Of a stretch of DNA of 64,000 nucleotides, positions 54,418 to 62,883 are shown in pieces; positions within the stretch are counted from its first letter, which is position 1; each line of letters begins with the position of its first letter. A program made the translations under genes and the position numbers. Below the pieces are notes generated by a model, which was not told the DNA's origin, did no database searches, and saw nothing but the letters and a program-made list of their open reading frames with translations. Origin of the DNA: Halobacteroides halobius DSM 5150 (lineage in GTDB: Bacteria > Bacillota > Halanaerobiia > Halobacteroidales > Halobacteroidaceae); assembly GCF_000328625.1 (NCBI RefSeq), contig NC_019978.1:186001-250000 (forward strand). Reading direction: 5' to 3'.

Positions 54418-55140
54418 TTAGAATTCCTCCTTGATAGTTAATTTGAAACAAATTTGATTATTTACAATACCTAATAATTCATTTTCCTTGGCCCATGATA
54501 AATTAATTTGGTTGTTACTTTTAATTGGTTTTGAATAAGTAATAGTTGCTTGTTTAAATAGTTTGTTATGACTTGCTAAATGATCTTCTAAAGTTAATAA
54601 CAGTAACATCCCCTGAATTACTGGATCTTGTGTTAAATGAATTTGATTAGGATCAGAACTATACTGACTAAATTTATAAATTTGAGTAGTATTAATCTTT
54701 CTCCAAGATTGGGATTTAGCGAAAAAAGGTTCTCCTTGTTGTGATTTTTTCTTTTTAGTTTTAATTAAGGTAGATGTTATATTGATTAATTCTTTATTCT
54801 TCCTGTTTACTTTTACTTGACATTTAACATAACTCATATTTGTCATAGCTTTAGCTTTCTTTAATCGGCTAGTTAGTATTAAGTTTTGATTTAATTGTGG
54901 AATTTCTGTAATATTAAATATTTGTTTGGCTAAATAATATCCAGTATCTATATCTTCTGATAAAGTTGATAAAGCTAAGGTAGAAGCAACCATTGGAGAT
55001 AATTTTTCTTTCCAGTTAAAATGCAGATCAAAACTTTCTTTCCATTTTTTTAATTCAGTAGAATTTAAATTAATAACTTGTTGTTTCCCACTTTTATCCC
55101 TCCTGCTTGATATTATAGAAAATAAATTTAATATTGTCAA
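54418..55140 (-). CDS. MaoC/FAS1-type hotdog-fold protein, start unresolved
   Basis: First gene of the biotin-linked operon. The C-terminal half resembles a MaoC-like hydratase: YKFSQYSSDPNQIHLTQDP recalls the catalytic (S/G)D-NPIH motif (here Asp, Asn and His are kept) and VIQGMLLLLTLEDHLA recalls the following (I/V)hGM segment. The N-terminal half resembles the partner hotdog of FAS1-type hydratases. The only in-frame early start is TTG 55140, but that triplet is the -35 TTGACA of a perfect promoter, so it cannot be in the mRNA. The well-spaced start after GGAGGG is GTG 55091, in another frame that stops after eight codons. A frameshift or an unusual start must be invoked; the first in-frame ATG is at 54996. 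Confidence 0.6.
   Translation of the reverse strand: MTILNLFSIISSRRDKSGKQQVINLNSTELKKWKESFDLHFNWKEKLSPMVASTLALSTLSEDIDTGYYLAKQIFNITEIPQLNQNLILTSRLKKAKAMTNMSYVKCQVKVNRKNKELINITSTLIKTKKKKSQQGEPFFAKSQSWRKINTTQIYKFSQYSSDPNQIHLTQDPVIQGMLLLLTLEDHLASHNKLFKQATITYSKPIKSNNQINLSWAKENELLGIVNNQICFKLTIKEEF
55112..55140 (-). promoter_or_regulatory. Consensus promoter of the biotin-linked operon
   Basis: On the minus strand TTGACA (55140-55135), 17-bp spacer, TATAAT (55117-55112): a full consensus match. Predicted transcription start near 55105, next to the GGAGGG ribosome site (55103-55098), so the leader is nearly absent. Confidence 0.88.
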
Positions 55141-55193: not shown

Positions 55194-55222
55194 TTGACAA
55201 TTAAGAAGAAGTTACATATACT
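55194..55222 (+). promoter_or_regulatory. Promoter P1 of the ilvB leader
   Basis: TTGACA (55194-55199), 17-bp spacer, TATACT (55217-55222). Transcripts from about 55229 contain both Stem I modules. Confidence 0.8.
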
Positions 55223-55236
55223 ATTTATCAAACGAT

Positions 55237-55336
55237 ATAACTTCAAAAGTTATGATAGGGACTGAAATAATGAATTAGATTACAGAGAATCGGGCTAGCT
55301 GAGAACCGAAGTCTAAATCAGTTATTTCTCTCACCC
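55237..55336 (+). promoter_or_regulatory. Upstream T-box Stem I module (no antiterminator of its own)
   Basis: After a small hairpin (ATAACTT 55237-55243 with AAGTTAT 55247-55253) comes a Stem I-like fold: GGG/CCC (55258-55260, 55334-55336), GAAATAA/TTATTTC (55264-55270, 55322-55328), TTAGA/TCTAA (55275-55279, 55312-55316), the CAGAGA word and a distal hairpin TCGG/CCGA (55290-55293, 55306-55309) with the GCTGAGAACC loop typical of T-boxes. The internal loop presents ATC (55317-55319) as candidate isoleucine specifier. Confidence 0.6.
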
Positions 55337-55377
55337 TTAAACTGTATAGTTAAAAGAAATTAACTTTTAGAAAAGTA

Positions 55378-55406
55378 TTGACAACGCAAGTAATATTATT
55401 TATACT
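55378..55406 (+). promoter_or_regulatory. Promoter P2 of the ilvB leader
   Basis: TTGACA (55378-55383), 17-bp spacer, TATACT (55401-55406), the same boxes and spacing as P1, 184 bp downstream. Transcripts from about 55413 would contain only the second, complete T-box. The -10 box lies in the left arm of an inverted repeat TTTATACTTA / TAAGTATAAA. Confidence 0.75.
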
Positions 55407-55447
55407 TAGTAGTAACAAATCAATTAAGTATAAATTTAAAAGCGTTG

Positions 55448-55816
55448 AAAGGGCAAAGTAAGTAGATGACTTTATTTACAGCGAACTGGATTAGGTGAGA
55501 GCCAGAATAAAAAACTCTGCTGAAAATCTCCTTGGAGTTGCAAGCTGAAAGTTAATTTTAAGTAAGCTATGCCGGCAACCTAGGCAAAGGCCTAGGAAGA
55601 ACAGCATCCGTTATCATATGCTGGAGTATGAAGCATGTTATGGCTTAATATACTGGGCCCGTACGGTCATAATGAAAGTGTCCGTACTTATAATATGTGA
55701 GTACTTATTGAGACTATTATCGTAAGATAGTAGTGAATTTGGGTGGTAACACGTGAGGAGACCTCTCGTCCCAGTTAACAGTATTCAACTGTTGATTGAG
55801 ATGAGAGGTTTTTTTA
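55448..55816 (+). promoter_or_regulatory. T-box riboswitch of the ilv-leu operon
   Basis: Stem I shows AGTA (55457-55460) and GAA (55522-55524) of the specifier-loop turn, TTTATT/AATAAA (55471-55476, 55506-55511) and the distal hairpin CTGG/CCAG (55486-55489, 55502-55505). Leu codons CTC (55515-55517) or CTG (55517-55519) are the candidate specifiers. The T-box GGGTGGTAACACG begins at 55741, with TGGT (55744-55747) to pair with tRNA NCCA. Antiterminator (TGGG/CCCA and ACG.GAGG with CCTC.CGT) and terminator (ACCTCTCGTC 55761-55770 with GATGAGAGGT 55800-55809, then seven T's) exclude each other. Confidence 0.92.
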
Positions 55817-55931
55817 TTAGAATAGATAATATAGTAGATAAGAATTGATTATTCAAAGAGTAGTAAGGAGTAGATTGGAATAGATTAATTACCTAGGGGA
55901 GAGTGTACCTAATTTCCTCTATCCGGTCTTG

Positions 55932-55960
55932 AGCTCTGAGTTGCTACTCAGGGCTTTTAT
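55932..55960 (+). terminator. Second terminator before ilvB
   Basis: AGCTCTGAGT (55932-55941) pairs with ACTCAGGGCT (55946-55955, one T-G) around a 4-nt loop, then TTTATTTTTATAT. It is 123 bp past the T-box terminator and 52 bp before the ilvB start. Upstream TAGGGGA / TCCTCTA can also pair (near 55895 and 55916). Confidence 0.7.
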
Positions 55961-56011
55961 TTTTATATAATACACTAAATGAGAAGTAGAGAAGTAAAAG
56001 GAGTGAAAAAA

Positions 56012-57745
56012 ATGGCAGAAATGACTGGTGCTAAAATGTTTGTTGAGTCTCTTTATCGTGAAAATGTAGAGACTATTTTTGGATATCCAGGAGGAGCGGT
56101 ATTGCCTATTTATGATCAGTTATATGATGCTGACTTTGAGCATATAATGCCTCATCATGAACAGGGTGGTGTCCATGCTGCTGATGGATATGCTCGCACA
56201 ACTGGTAAGGTTGGGGTTTGTATTGCCACCTCAGGGCCAGGAGGTACAAACTTAGTTACAGGTTTAGCTACAGCTTATATGGATTCTGTACCTATTGTAG
56301 CCTTTACTGGTCAGGTACCTAGTTCTATGATAGGAACAGATGCTTTTCAAGAAGCTGATATTACTGGAATTACAGTACCAATTACTAAGCATAATTATTT
56401 GGTGCAGGATGTAAAAGAGCTACCGAGAATAATTAAGGAAGCTTTTCATTTAGCCCAAACTGGTCGACCAGGACCAGTATTAATTGATATTCCTAAAGAT
56501 ATTTTAAATTCTAAAGCAGAATTTAATTATCCTACAGAAGTTAATCTACCTGGTTATAAACCTAATTATCAAGGGCATGAATTACAAGTTGAAGAAGCAG
56601 CTAAGGCTATTAATGAAGCTAAAAACCCAGTGATTTATGCTGGTGGAGGTGTGATTCTTTCAGAAGCTAGTGATAAACTAAGAGAATTATCTAAAAAGGC
56701 TTCGATTCCAGTAACTACTACTTTAAATGGTTTAGGAGCTGTTAATGAGCGAGATGATTTAAGTTTAGGTATGTTAGGAATGCATGGTACGACTGAAGCT
56801 AACCTAGCGGTTTCCAATACTGATTTATTAATTACAATTGGAGCTCGTTTTGATGATCGAGTAACAGGTAAGTTAGATACTTTTGCAGCTGAGGCTAAGA
56901 TTATTCATATTGATATTGATCCAGCTGAAGTAGGGAAGAGAGTAGAAATTGATATTCCAATTGTTGGAGATGCGAGAAGAGTACTAAAAGAATTAAATCC
57001 ACTAATAGAAGCAAGAGAGAATAAAGAGTGGGCCAAGCAAATTGCTGAGTGGAGAAAATTAGATGATAATAGAGTAGAGGAGAGTAATAAATTATTGCCC
57101 CATCAAATTATTGAAGAAATTGATAGTCTAACTAATGGAGAGGCCCTAATAACTACAGAAGTAGGGCAACATCAGATGTGGGCTGCTCAATTTTATCAAT
57201 TTAGTAAACCTCGTAGTTTTGCTTCATCTGGCGGCTTAGGAACAATGGGTTATGGTTTTCCTGCTGCTATAGGAGTGCAAGCTGGCAATAAGGATGATAT
57301 AGTTTTTGCTTTGGCAGGTGATGGAAGTTTTCAAATGAACCTGCAAGAATTAGCTACAGTTGCTAAGAATGAATTACCAGTTAATATTGTAGTCTTTAAT
57401 AATCAGTATTTAGGGATGGTTAGACAGTGGCAAGAAATGTTTTATGATAAAAGATACTCTGCTGTTTGTCTAAAGCAACAAGCTGATTGTCCACCGGGCT
57501 GTTCTTCTCCTAGCGAGGATTGTCCTGAGATGAAGCCCGACTTTGTTAAGTTAGCTGAAAGTTTTGGTATTAAGGCTAAGCGAGTTACTGAAGTTGATGA
57601 GATTAGACCAGCTCTAGAAGAAGCAATTAATACGTCTGAGCCTTATTTATTAGACTTTATTATTGAAGAAGAAGAGAATGTATTTCCTATGGTACCACCT
57701 GGTGGTAGCCTAGATAAGATGGTTTTAAAGGAGGATGTAGAATGA
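56012..57745 (+). CDS. ilvB: Acetolactate synthase, catalytic subunit
   Basis: TPP- and FAD-dependent first enzyme of branched-chain amino acid synthesis, 577 residues from ATG 56012, which follows AAGGAGTGA; eleven upstream in-frame codons from 55979 include that site and are excluded. Catalytic E50 is in PHHEQGGVHAADG; the TPP motif starts with GDGSFQMNLQELATV. Between ERYS-type FYDKRYSAVC and PDFVKLAESFGI there is an extra loop with C486, C493, C497 and C504 (CX6CX3CX6C) that the B. subtilis enzyme lacks. It overlaps ilvN by 4 bp. Confidence 0.97.
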   Translation: MAEMTGAKMFVESLYRENVETIFGYPGGAVLPIYDQLYDADFEHIMPHHEQGGVHAADGYARTTGKVGVCIATSGPGGTNLVTGLATAYMDSVPIVAFTGQVPSSMIGTDAFQEADITGITVPITKHNYLVQDVKELPRIIKEAFHLAQTGRPGPVLIDIPKDILNSKAEFNYPTEVNLPGYKPNYQGHELQVEEAAKAINEAKNPVIYAGGGVILSEASDKLRELSKKASIPVTTTLNGLGAVNERDDLSLGMLGMHGTTEANLAVSNTDLLITIGARFDDRVTGKLDTFAAEAKIIHIDIDPAEVGKRVEIDIPIVGDARRVLKELNPLIEARENKEWAKQIAEWRKLDDNRVEESNKLLPHQIIEEIDSLTNGEALITTEVGQHQMWAAQFYQFSKPRSFASSGGLGTMGYGFPAAIGVQAGNKDDIVFALAGDGSFQMNLQELATVAKNELPVNIVVFNNQYLGMVRQWQEMFYDKRYSAVCLKQQADCPPGCSSPSEDCPEMKPDFVKLAESFGIKAKRVTEVDEIRPALEEAINTSEPYLLDFIIEEEENVFPMVPPGGSLDKMVLKEDVE

Positions 57746-58221
57746 GGCATACTGTTTCAGTATTAGTAGCTAATGAGTCGGGAGTTTTGGCCCGGATTGC
57801 TGGTTTGTTTAGTAGACGTGGGTTTAATATTGATAGTTTATCTGTAAGTCGAACTGAAGATGATACTACTTCTCGGATTACATTAGTAGTTGCTGGTGAT
57901 AAGAGGGAATTAGAACAAGTAACTAAACAGCTTAATAAATTGGTGATAGTCTATAAAGTTAGCGATATAACTAATGATGAAACAGTAGACCGTGGCTTAG
58001 CTTTAATTAAAGTGCAGGCTGATTCTAATACCAGATCAGAGATTATACAGATTGTTGATAGTTTTAGAGGTAAAATAGTTGATGTAGCTACTAATTCAAT
58101 CATGATTGAAATTACTGGAGATGAAAGTAAGATTAATGCTATTGAGAAGTTATTAAATCCATTTGGAATTAAAGAATTAGTTAGAACTGGGAAGATAGCT
58201 ATGGGGCGAGGTAAGAAGTAA
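57742..58221 (+). CDS. ilvN: Acetolactate synthase, regulatory subunit
   Basis: Small subunit giving feedback inhibition by valine, 159 residues. N-terminal ACT domain: HTVSVLVANESGVLARIAGL and FSRRGFNIDSLSVSRTED; C-terminal ALS_ss domain: RGLALIKVQADSNTRSEIIQ and NPFGIKELVRTGKIAMGRG. ATG overlaps the ilvB stop (ATGA), with AAGGAGG just upstream. A 186-bp spacer with an inverted repeat separates it from ilvC. Also called ilvH. Confidence 0.96.
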   Translation: MRHTVSVLVANESGVLARIAGLFSRRGFNIDSLSVSRTEDDTTSRITLVVAGDKRELEQVTKQLNKLVIVYKVSDITNDETVDRGLALIKVQADSNTRSEIIQIVDSFRGKIVDVATNSIMIEITGDESKINAIEKLLNPFGIKELVRTGKIAMGRGKK

Positions 58222-58226
58222 TTAAT

Positions 58227-58361
58227 AGTTAACAGTATCTTGATTTAGACCTTAATCTTGAAGACTAATACTATTGGAATTATGGTATTAAATTGATAAT
58301 TTAAATTGTGAAACAGTTTGATGGTGTTCAGTTATTTAGAATTTGGTTTTAACTGTTAACT
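58227..58361. repeat. Inverted-repeat element in the ilvN-ilvC spacer
   Basis: AGTTAACAGT (58227-58236) is inverted exactly at 58352-58361. The ends bracket 115 bp of AT-rich sequence without an open frame, and a run of related words (CTGTTAACTGTCAGCTGTTCAC) follows the right end in pieces. Confidence 0.6.
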
Positions 58362-58407
58362 GTCAGCTGTTCACTGTACACTAAAACTAATAGAGGAGAT
58401 GAGTAGA

Positions 58408-59400
58408 ATGGTAAAAATGTATTATAATGAAGATGCAGATTTAAAGTATTTAGAAGGTAAAAAGGTAGCAGTCATTGGTTATGGTAGTCAAGGACACGCT
58501 CAAGCACAGAATATGAGAGAGGCTGGTCTAGATGTAATTGTTGGTCAGAGAAAAGGCGGAGCGAGTTATGAGCAAGCAGTTGCCGATGGTTTTAAACCAG
58601 TTTCAGCGGCAGAAGCTGCTAAACAAGCTGATGTAATTCAAGTCTTACTACCTGATGAGGTACAGAAAAAAGTTTATTATAATGATATTGAACCTAATTT
58701 AGAAGCAGGAAATGCTTTGGTTTTCTCTCATGGATTTAATATCCATTTTGAACAAATTCTTCCTCCAACAGATGTAGATGTTTATATGGTTGCTCCTAAA
58801 GGGCCAGGGCACTTAGTAAGAAGAGTTTATGAGGATGGCTCTGGTGTACCATGCTTAATTGCAATTTATCAAGATGCTACAGGAGATGCTAAAGAAAAGG
58901 CCTTAGCTCATGCTAAAGGTGTTGGTGGAACTCGAGCTGGTGTAATTGAAACTAGCTTTAAAGAAGAAACAGAGACTGATTTATTTGGTGAGCAGGCTGT
59001 ATTATGTGGAGGAGCTAGTGAGTTAGTTAGAGCTGGTTTTGAGACATTAGTAGATGCTGGTTACCAACCAGAAATTGCTTATTTTGAATGCTTACATGAA
59101 TTAAAGCTGATTGTAGATTTAATGTATGAAGGCGGTATTGCTACAATGAGAGATTCTATTTCTGATACTGCTGAGTATGGTGATTTAATTGCTGGTAAGC
59201 AAGTAATTAATGATAAATCTAGAGAAGCTATGCAGAAGTTACTAAAAGATATTCAAACAGGGGAATTTGCAAAACAGTGGTTACTTGAAAATCAAGTAGG
59301 ACGTCCAGCTTACTCTAAGCGCAAAGAAATTGATGCTAATCATCAGATTGAGCAAGTTGGAGAGAAGTTAAGAAGTAAGATGAACTGGATTGAAGAATAA
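58408..59400 (+). CDS. ilvC: Ketol-acid reductoisomerase
   Basis: NADPH-dependent isomeroreductase, 330 residues (short class I form). Start ATG 58408 is 9 nt after GAGGAG; the ATG at 58399 touches that site. Rossmann motif [27 protein letters not shown] and the metal ligands in [10 protein letters not shown] and [14 protein letters not shown] are present. The loop [12 protein letters not shown] suggests NADPH preference by the Arg-Lys after the second strand. The next gene is leuA, after a spacer with a hairpin repeat. Confidence 0.97.
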
Positions 59401-59411
59401 GTTAGTTTTAA

Positions 59412-59446
59412 GCTGTGGGTTGTGAGTTTTACTCATAGCTCATGGC
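59412..59446 (+). repeat. Hairpin repeat in the ilvC-leuA spacer
   Basis: Bases 59412-59427 pair with 59431-59446 over all 16 positions, five of them G-U, around a 3-nt loop. Because of the G-U pairs only the plus-strand RNA, the operon mRNA, folds fully. The words CTCATAGC and GCTATGAG link it to the element at 52531-52650. No T-run follows. Confidence 0.7.
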
Positions 59447-59481
59447 TGATAACTAATAGCCAAAAAGAAGGAGTGGAGCAG

Positions 59482-60984
59482 ATGCCAGTTAAAATCTTTG
59501 ATACGACCTTACGTGATGGAGAACAGTCTCCTGGGGTTAGTTTAAGTGTGAAAGAAAAGGTAGAGATTGCAAAGCAATTAGCTAAGTTGGAAGTAGATAT
59601 CATTGAAGCTGGTTTCCCTATTGCTTCTCCAGGTGATTTTAAAGCAGTGAAAGAAATAGCTCAAGAGGTCTCAGGTCCAGTTATTGCTGGGTTGGCTAGA
59701 GCTACTAAAGGAGATATTGACCGAGCTTGGGAAGCTTTACAAGAAGCAAAAAAACCAAGGATTCACACCTTTATTGCTACATCACCAGTGCATATGGAAT
59801 ATAAATTACAAAAGGATCCAAATGAAGTATTAGATGCTGCTGTTAAAGCAGTTAAATATGCTAAGTCTTATACTGCTGATGTTGAATTTTCTGCTGAAGA
59901 TGCTTTTCGTAGTGATAAGGATTTTTTATGTGATATTTTTGAAGCAGTAATTGAAGCTGGGGCAACAACTATTAATATACCTGATACTGTTGGTTATGCC
60001 ACCCCAGAAGAGTTTGGTGGATTAATTAGTTATATAAAAAATAATGTTTCTAATATAGATGATGCTATAATTAGTGTTCATTGTCATAATGACCTTGGAT
60101 TAGCAGTAGCCAATTCTTTAGCAGCTGTTGAAAATGGGGCACAGCAGGTAGAGTGTGCAGTTAATGGAGTAGGAGAGCGAGCCGGAAATACAGCTTTAGA
60201 AGAGATTGCTTTAACTTTAAATACCCGCCATGATTATTTTACTAATCAGACTACTCTTAAGCTTAAAGAGATTGCTCGTACCAGTAGATTAGTTAGTCAT
60301 TTAACTGGGATGCCTATTCAACCTAATAAAGCAATTGTAGGTAAGAATGCTTTTGCTCATGAATCTGGTATTCATCAAGATGGAGTAATTAAAGAGCGTA
60401 CAACTTATGAGATTATGGATGCTCAAACGATTGGTTTAAAGGAAAACAAGATTGTATTAGGTAAACATTCAGGTCGGCATGCTTTTAAAGATAAAATGGA
60501 AGAGTTAGGTTATAAATTAAAAGAAGAAGAGTTAAATTCTGCTTTTAAACGTTTTAAGGATCTAGCTGATAAGAAGAAGGAATTTACTAGTCTTGATTTA
60601 GAAGCAATTATGGAAGATGAGATCAGTCAAGTAACTGAAATTTACCAAGTTGATTTATTACAGGTAACAAGTAGTTCTGGATTAGCTACAGCTACTGTTC
60701 AGATAGAAAATGAAGGAGAAAAGATTAATGAATCAGCTTGCTCTGAAGGTGGGCCAATTGATGCTGTTTATGAAGCAATTAATCGGATTACAGGTTTAGA
60801 TTGTAAATTAGTTAATTATAAGATAGATTCTGTAACCAAGGGTAAAGATGCTTTAGGTGAAGTAATTGTTAAGTTAGAATATGAAAATAATTTATATATT
60901 GGTCGAGGAGTTAGTACTGATGTAATTGAGGCTAGTGCTAAGGCTTATAACAATGCCATTAATAAAGTTGCGGCGGACTTATAG
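59482..60984 (+). CDS. leuA: 2-isopropylmalate synthase
   Basis: Condenses acetyl-CoA with 2-ketoisovalerate, first step of leucine synthesis, 500 residues. Start ATG 59482 ([20 protein letters not shown]) is 8 nt after AAGGAG; a longer frame from 59422 would translate the repeat element and is rejected. [20 protein letters not shown] gives the metal histidines, [14 protein letters not shown] the second signature, and a complete C-terminal LeuA allosteric domain follows (about residues 365-500), so feedback by leucine is expected. Homocitrate or citramalate synthase is less likely given the operon. Confidence 0.94.
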
Positions 60985-61033
60985 AATTGATAATTATAAA
61001 TTATAAATAAATGAAGTCGAGGAGGAAGTAGCT

Positions 61034-62296
61034 ATGGGAATGACGATGGTAGAGAAAATATTAGCAGCCCATGCTGGTAAAGATAAAGTTAAGCCAGGTG
61101 AGTTGGTAAATGCTAAAGTTGATTTGGTATTAGGAAATGATGTAACTACACCAGTAGCAGTTAAAGAATTTAATAAAATCGGGGTAAATGAGGTATTTGA
61201 TAAGGATCGGGTGGCAATTGTTCCAGACCATTTTGCACCTAATAAAGATATTAATTCTGCAGAACAATGTAAGATGATTAGAAACTTTGCCCATAATAAA
61301 GAAATTACTAATTATTTTGAAATAGGTGAGATGGGAATTGAACATTGTCTATTACCAGAAAAAGGATTAGCTTTACCAGGGGATATTATTATTGGGGCTG
61401 ATTCTCATACTTGTACTTATGGTGCTTTAGGTGCTTTAGGTACTGGAGTAGGTAGTACTGATATGGCAGCAGGAATGGCTAGTGGAGAAGCTTGGTTTAA
61501 AGTGCCAGAAACAATTAAGTTTGTTTATAATGGAGACCTACAAGATTGGGTCAGTGGTAAAGATTTAATTTTATATACTATAGGTGATATTGGTGTTGAC
61601 GGTGCTCTCTATAAAGCTATGGAATTTAGTGGAGAAGTAATAGAAGACTTTTCAATGGCTAATCGAATGACAATGTCTAATATGGCTATTGAAGCTGGAG
61701 GTAAGTGTGGCTTAATTGAACCAGATAAAAAGACGTTAGAGTATGTTAAGGATAGAGCACAAAGAGATTATACAGTTTATAAAAGTGATGAAGATGCTAA
61801 TTATGATCAAGTAATTGAGTATGATGTAAGTGAAATTGAACCGCAAGTTGCTTTTCCTCACTTGCCTGAAAATACAAAAGGAATTAGTGAAGTAGAAGAT
61901 ATTGCAATAGATCAAGCTGTAATTGGTTCCTGTACTAACGGGCGATTGGAAGACTTAAGGGTTGCTGCTGAAATATTAGAAGGTAAAAAGAAAGCAGAAC
62001 ATTTAAGATTAATTATCTTCCCTGGAACACAAGAGATTTATCGTCAAGCAATGAAAGAAGGATTAATAGATATCTTCTTAGATGCTGGAGCAGCAGTTAG
62101 TACCCCAACGTGTGGGCCATGTTTAGGTGGTCATATGGGTATTTTAGCTAAAGGAGAAAGAGCAATTGCTACAACTAATCGTAATTTTGTTGGTCGAATG
62201 GGTCATCCAGAAAGTGAAGTGTATTTATCTAATCCAGCAGTAGCAGCGGCTTCAGCTATTAAAGGAAAAATTGTTAGTCCTAAGGAGGTTTTGTAA
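61034..62296 (+). CDS. leuC: 3-isopropylmalate dehydratase, large subunit
   Basis: Aconitase-family [4Fe-4S] enzyme, 420 residues, the short form also seen in archaea and clostridia, not the 460-470-residue enterobacterial type. Cluster cysteines are in [12 protein letters not shown] and [34 protein letters not shown] is the substrate-side signature. RBS GAGGAGG before ATG 61034. Pairs with leuD 92 bp downstream. The short type also includes homoaconitases, so the substrate rests on context. Confidence 0.93.
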
Positions 62297-62388
62297 AACT
62301 CCAAGGAGGACTTTATATTATATAAGTAAGAAGTAAGTATAAGAAAACAATTGCAAAAATATTGAAGTATTAAGGGAGGAAAAGAAAT

Positions 62389-62883
62389 ATGGATATCCAA
62401 GGAAAGGCCTGGAAGTATGGAGACGATATAGATACGGATGTTATTATTCCAGCTCGTTATTTAAATACGTCTCAGCCAGAAGAGTTGGCTAAACATTGTC
62501 TAGAAGACTTAGATGAAGATTTTGTTGATAAGATGGAGCAAGGAGATTTAATTGTAGCCCAAGATAACTTTGGTTGCGGCAGTTCTCGTGAACACGCTCC
62601 ACTAGCTATTAAAGCAGCAGGTGTCTCTTGTGTGATTGCTAATTCATTTGCTCGGATTTTTTATCGAAATTCTATTAATATAGGATTGCCAATTTTAGAA
62701 TGTCCTACAGCAGTAGAAGCAATTGCAGAGGGAGACCAGATAGAAGTAGATGTTGAATCAGGAACTATTAAGAATTTAACTAAGGCTGAAGAATATCAAG
62801 CGGAAGCTTTTCCTGAATTTATGCAAGAGATTATGGCTAAAGATGGACTTGTAAATTACGTTAAAGAGCGAATTAACAATTAA
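62389..62883 (+). CDS. leuD: 3-isopropylmalate dehydratase, small subunit
   Basis: Swivelling domain partner of LeuC, 164 residues, the short form matching the short Leu[21 protein letters not shown] near the N-terminus and [20 protein letters not shown] are diagnostic; [17 protein letters not shown] follows. The YLNTSQPEE loop is the substrate-recognition segment. RBS GGGAGGA. A 284-bp spacer with an inverted repeat separates it from leuB. Confidence 0.94.

Follow-up and report, generated by a model that had tools for sequence, protein, structure and literature searches.

How can two T-box Stem I modules be served by a single terminator, and which amino acids do they sense? The region upstream of ilvB in Halobacteroides halobius DSM 5150 raises this question. 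It lies in a window of 64,000 nucleotides, which is the whole stretch of DNA analyzed and to which all coordinates below refer. The source genome is a single contig of 2.65 Mb, and its close relatives are Natroniella, Halonatronum, Fuchsiella and Candidatus Frackibacter (Halobacteroidaceae, order Halanaerobiales). Downstream of the leader, an ilvB-ilvN-ilvC-leuA-leuC-leuD operon (55979–62883, plus strand) was identified from its ORFs and NCBIfam matches; its products serve the synthesis of isoleucine, valine and leucine. An earlier note, made from the sequence alone, had described a composite leader in which one terminator switch serves two Stem I modules, each with a promoter of its own. This description is supported by the present analysis, more strongly than it was first put.

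For comparison, ilvB upstream regions were gathered as 32 loci. The composite arrangement was found in 10 of these leaders, from salt-loving bacteria of the Halobacteroidaceae and related families. Five belong to the same family (G000, G002, G003, G004 and G006) and five to a second family of the order (G008, G009, G010, G011 and G012; in G011 it precedes the second ilvB and is called G011b). The composite of G010 is a reduced form that lacks the second Stem I. The composite-bearing genomes are a small sample of ten and are mutually related, so the shuffle and permutation counts given below overstate independence; the shuffle counts are not probabilities.

The upstream Stem I and its candidate leucine specifier

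The upstream Stem I (module 1; 55246–55348, plus strand) was delineated from RF00230, CM R1 and covariation. It comprises a K-turn base, a compact specifier loop without loop E, an AG-bulge and an apical loop for the tRNA elbow. A restricted scan with RF00230 matched 55243–55380 with a sub-threshold 27 bits (E 2.5e-4), and the orthologues in the leaders of five relatives scored 34–45 bits. Together with the complete RF00230 match downstream, these hits bear out the proposal of two Stem I modules. CM R1, a model that includes the module 1 sequence itself, gave 110.8 bits. In a structure-aware alignment of the ten copies, 97.8% of pair cells were standard, a percentage that leans towards the model because the counted sequences helped to build R1; the double changes were read straight from the sequences. 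The earlier note had named compensatory changes among relatives as a test of this module, and they were found: both sides had changed in 8 of 23 pairs across the ten modules, a count that none of 500 shuffles matched. Slid registers fared far worse than the true register, which was the best. The co-varying spots are the stem base, the K-turn flanks and the pair that closes the specifier loop.

The specifier is predicted to be CUC (Leu) at 55330–55332 on the plus strand, invariant in 10/10 composites. A tRNA-Leu(GAG) ending in A-CCA is encoded in the genome. An ATC (Ile) codon had been read here previously, but it lies outside the loop, in a part of the upper stem that is not conserved, and was rejected. 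The lack of an AGUA/GAA loop E, already remarked upon, holds for module 1 in 10/10 composites. Loop E is likewise missing from single, otherwise complete Val/Leu T-boxes of the same subtype, in which the codon position mostly holds GUA and in two cases CUC. Its absence is therefore a trait of the subtype and normal for module 1; this explains the doubt about module 1 in the earlier note, which had taken it as a possible sign of decay. Module 1 has no antiterminator or terminator of its own and amounts to the sensing part of a T-box rather than to a whole one. Judged by comparison across these genomes, it is a real Stem I of predicted leucine specificity.

The loop-E-less subtype with GUA (Val) also occurs across the class as single complete T-boxes before ilvB (loci L050, L052, L056, L060, L061, L066, L067, L069 and L071–L074). 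Its GUA specifier deviates from the usual preference for a specifier with a 3' C.

A downstream T-box with a predicted isoleucine specifier

RF00230 detected a complete T-box at 55436–55776 with 99.8 bits, compared with a gathering threshold of 93 bits. Its Stem I (module 2; 55436–55539, plus strand) carries the loop E motif AGUA/GAA and was assigned to isoleucine from RF00230 and its likeness to ileS leaders. The predicted specifier, AUC (Ile; 55526–55528, plus strand), is invariant in 9/9 module 2 copies and is also the specifier of the ileS leader of the same genome. Module 2 and the ileS T-boxes of the same genomes have in common an apical signature and a specifier-loop signature, AGCGAACTRGG...GGTGNRAGCC and GAAnATC. 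Module 2 differs from the ileS T-box in sitting inside another T-box and in having a 7-nt Stem II 5' strand with a bulge. A tRNA-Ile(GAU) is encoded in the genome, with A73 and an A-CCA end. By sequence likeness, module 2 is thus an ileS-type Stem I that would sense isoleucine.

Leucine codons (CTC or CTG) had been suggested for this module. CTC was rejected, since the corresponding positions read ATCACCC in G003 and ATCCCCC in G008 while ATC is invariant. With CUC in module 1 and AUC in module 2, the earlier assignment of isoleucine and leucine to the two modules is reversed.

One Stem II 3' strand for two 5' strands

Two Stem II 5' strands and one 3' strand were located, all on the plus strand. 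Strand 5'a (GUAUAGUU; 55344–55351) belongs to module 1 and pairs 8/8 with 55565–55572, with covariation. Strand 5'b (GCAAGCU; 55540–55546) belongs to module 2 and forms 7 bp with a 1-nt bulge. The sole 3' strand (55561–55572), predicted to be common to both, consists of the S-turn AGUA and AGCUAUGC. In 10/10 composites 5'a adjoins module 1, and the one 3' strand available to it is found about 213 nt further downstream, past module 2. The site where a 3' strand of module 1 would be expected is occupied by the second promoter. The shared 3' strand, which the earlier note had missed, suggests that the two T-boxes are nested rather than only adjacent.

Strand 5'a pairs 8/8 with this 3' strand in G000, G003, G004, G006 and G012 and 7/8 in G002. 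In these six genomes 97.9% of positions are paired and 3 of 8 pairs have changed on both sides, which was reached in 1 of 500 shuffles. When strands were exchanged among genomes, the pairing of 5'a with the 3' strand was weaker than for cognate strands (mean −3.6 vs −5.3 kcal/mol, p=0.004), whereas 5'b showed no cognate preference (p=0.62). Strand 5'b is 7 nt long (8 nt in G012), and the fifth base of the 3' strand has no partner in it; it is this base that co-varies (A/U) with 5'a. In 23–24 of the 27 ordinary T-boxes listed for the class, Stem II is a helix of 8/8 pairs without gaps that runs up to the S-turn. The geometry of 5'a with the 3' strand is therefore the standard one, and that of 5'b is not. 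In the P1 RNA of the window genome, the S-turn helix of Stem II by Stem I is this long-range 8/8 helix, which adjoins AGUA. The S-turn G after 5'a is an A in this genome, so that the GAA partner reads AAA.

Unguided RNAalifold on the six leaders predicted the long-range pairing of 5'a (about 230 nt) along with both Stem I domains. RNAfold gave values of 0.94, 0.99, 0.77 and 0.91 for this pairing in G000, G004, G006 and G012 (0.94 for the window); shuffling of segments abolished it, and none of 40 shuffles reached the observed value. Single-sequence RNAfold did not favor it in G002, G003, G008, G009, G010 and G011b. In the last four, all from the second family, the pairing is degraded to 5–6/7, and the mechanism may therefore differ there. 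A low probability was assigned to the pairing of 5'b in the P2 RNA of several genomes, by a program that ignores S-turns, tRNA and co-transcriptional folding.

A single T-box expression platform

The 3' strand is followed by the Stem IIA/B region with its CCGUUA F-box and by Stem III (55573–55740), both placed by RF00230 alignment. The antiterminator at 55741–55776, from the same model, has its T-box bulge UGGU at 55744–55747, which fits the discriminator A73 of both tRNA-Leu(GAG) and tRNA-Ile(GAU). The sole T-box intrinsic terminator, CCTCTCGTCCC...GATGAGAGG-T7, was identified from the sequence at 55761–55816; all of these features are on the plus strand. In none of the ten composites did the stretch from module 1 to the Stem II 3' strand contain a terminator-like hairpin or a T-box motif. 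This agrees with the earlier claims that module 1 has no antiterminator of its own and that one T-box terminator switch serves two modules. The ilvB leader differs from a classic tandem T-box, in which both switches are complete and each ends in a terminator.

A second terminator-like hairpin is present at 55931–55956, upstream of ilvB. The leader may therefore have a second decision point, with another input.

This hairpin belongs to a unit at 55894–55966, between the T-box terminator and ilvB, in which the conserved motif AGGGRWARGTATAYCTAATTT is followed by a hairpin and a T-run. Further sites of the unit are G000:C1:398503 (L181), L190, L187 and L180, and its terminator is also present in G001 and in the majority of the composite leaders. 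In addition, the motif stands ahead of trpE terminators in two genomes, with tandem copies in G000. It precedes the cobT terminator after a cobalamin riboswitch in G005 and lies within the loop of a terminator ahead of a glp-like gene in G009. Across 15 genomes the AGGGRWARGTATAYCTAATTT pattern had 14 matches, compared with 5 for a reversed control. A search of the motif against Rfam matched no family.

Two conserved promoter sequences

Two promoters of the form TTGACA-N17-TATACT, each matching 11/12 positions, are predicted on the plus strand. P1 (55194–55222) would start RNA at about 55229, upstream of module 1, and P2 (55378–55406) at about 55413, within the loop of the long-range Stem II. 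Both sequences, at 55194 and 55378, have exactly the form given in the earlier note, and both are kept in relatives: P1 with 11–12/12 matches and 17-nt spacing in 9/10 composites (G012 is ambiguous), P2 with the same range and spacing in 10/10.

On the minus strand, a perfect TTGACA-N17-TATAAT promoter-like site (12/12) was found at 55112–55140, divergent from P1. This site lies at the start of a 240-aa minus-strand ORF (54418–55140).

Nested T-boxes as a candidate OR gate

These features are probably best explained by nested leucine and isoleucine T-boxes with one decision point, which would turn the operon on if either amino acid is short. The two Stem I modules, their codons, the promoter sequences and the lack of an inner terminator have comparative support, as does, in six genomes, the shared Stem II 3' strand with its covariation. 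We infer that both promoters are transcribed and that each Stem I binds its tRNA. The P1 RNA would then be a leucine T-box in which a loop of about 213 nt separates the CUC Stem I and its Stem II 5' strand from the 3' strand, with Stem IIA/B, Stem III and the antiterminator/terminator coming after. P2, the AUC Stem I and the second copy of the 5' strand would lie within this Stem II loop. The P2 RNA would lack the leucine part and act as an isoleucine T-box whose Stem II is made with 5'b. Uncharged tRNA-Leu(GAG) on the P1 RNA is expected to stabilize the UGGU antiterminator, and uncharged tRNA-Ile(GAU) on the P2 RNA would stabilize the same one. tRNA-Ile(GAU) may also act on the P1 RNA, after strand exchange. 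Shortage of leucine or of isoleucine would thus lead to transcription of ilvBNC-leuACD. An OR output is the natural reading, since there is one UGGU bulge and one Stem II 3' strand. The fuller form of this proposal is a natural two-input RNA OR gate with T-boxes nested in Stem II, in which the two 5' strands compete for, and exclude each other from, one 3' strand, the P1 RNA switches between leucine and isoleucine modes, and the P2 RNA senses isoleucine only. To this form we give an even chance.

In G010 (Fuchsiella) the isoleucine Stem I has been lost, and module 1, P1 and the platform are retained. This natural deletion fits the view that the shared platform is driven by module 1. The composite probably arose when a promoter and an ileS-type Stem I entered a Val/Leu-type T-box at its Stem II loop, as suggested by the differing lengths of the two 5' strands (8 nt vs 7 nt) and by the occurrence of single Val-type T-boxes in related genomes.

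In the G010 leader (L055, 850–1250; Fuchsiella alkaliacetigena), P2 persists, together with a portion of the second Stem II strand. With the isoleucine Stem I gone, the P2 RNA there would be a T-box without any Stem I.

Competing explanations

The leader could also work without any strand exchange, with tRNA-Leu on the upstream Stem I tethered flexibly to the common antiterminator and Stem II always formed through 5'b. Four genomes do retain module 1 despite poor pairing of 5'a, and 5'b pairs with a conserved bulge, which would suit such a design. However, it is hard to reconcile with a 5'a that is retained beside Stem I in 10/10 composites and that, in six genomes, pairs 7–8/8 and co-varies with the 3' strand, or with the missing cognate preference of 5'b; we regard it as unlikely, although it is the strongest of the alternatives. 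Control could instead lie mainly in promoter choice, with P1 and P2 obeying different transcription factors and module 1 tuning the stability or folding of the P1 RNA. Both promoters are near-consensus and conserved, and in the adenine riboswitch/T-box(Tyr) case, with promoters before and between the elements, promoter choice was left open by the authors (PMC9481103). Such control does not account for three features of module 1, namely its conserved Leu codon, its elbow-binding loops and its Stem II 5' strand, and it is quite improbable.

When ON riboswitches stand in tandem and each has a separate terminator, the resulting logic is of the AND type. The earlier note had proposed an and/or gate for isoleucine and leucine, and its AND part would mean that readthrough of the P1 RNA needs both tRNAs uncharged. 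Both specifiers are indeed conserved within one RNA, but that RNA has a single UGGN bulge, a single Stem II 3' strand and a single T-box terminator; the P2 RNA bypasses module 1, and G010 is down to one Stem I. The AND part is accordingly very unlikely, and OR is the preferred reading. Least credible of all is that module 1 is a functionless, decaying duplicate, as the earlier note had considered, and that P2 and the isoleucine T-box alone matter. In favor of decay, module 1 has neither a Stem II 3' strand nor an antiterminator to itself, and its Rfam score is below threshold. Decay is contradicted by its covariation, its invariant CUC, the presence of P1 in 9/10 composites and its retention in ten genomes from two families, whereas it was the isoleucine Stem I that G010 lost.

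Relation to known systems

The nested leucine and isoleucine T-boxes share with the transcriptional T-boxes of RF00230 a Stem I with specifier, K-turn and elbow-binding loops, a Stem II S-turn, Stem IIA/B, Stem III and a UGGN antiterminator/terminator. They differ in having two Stem I specificities, two Stem II 5' strands with one 3' strand and one terminator, and an internal promoter inside the Stem II loop. Tandem T-boxes of ilv, leu, trp and thrS leaders are complete switches in series, with their own platforms and the same kind of signal (PMC12452182). They resemble the present leader in placing two T-box elements ahead of one branched-chain operon, but the ilvB leader has one T-box terminator and two amino acids. 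In tandem glycine aptamers, two sensor domains likewise act on a single expression platform, with one ligand and one transcript (PMC9481103); the ilvB leader is nested instead of serial and has different tRNAs and a second promoter. The tandem of adenine riboswitch and T-box(Tyr) has an upstream and an internal promoter and two independent switches (PMC9481103). Here too, promoter choice sets the number of sensors in the RNA, but the ilvB leader has a common expression platform and one Stem II strand.

Repeated Stem I copies were also observed in metG leaders of Natroniella (L112, G006:C84:27200-28400; L113, G004:C31:99500-100900), with 2–3 Met-type copies and one antiterminator. The copies are split by an inserted repeat, AGATAAGTGCCCAAG...GATCACGAAGGGTTC..., and a similar repeat breaks up a Stem I copy in L116 (G003). 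In contrast to the ilvB composite, these leaders have the same Met specificity throughout, the inserted repeat and no retained Stem II 5' strand, and they look like a different event.

A 2022 review counted OR among the logic types unseen in nature and stated that it would need interacting domains, for example two ON switches (PMC9481103). In the open-access literature, no description was found of a platform served by two Stem I domains; Vitreschak 2008 (RNA) and Gutierrez-Preciado 2009 (MMBR) lie outside that search, and an earlier description is possible. What is new relative to the known systems is the putative sharing of a Stem II strand, which would nest two T-boxes in one switch. The ilvB leader is thus a concrete and conserved candidate for a natural OR gate, with a plausible route of origin, and it suggests a way in which a single terminator could let an operon for leucine, isoleucine and valine respond to two different starvation signals.
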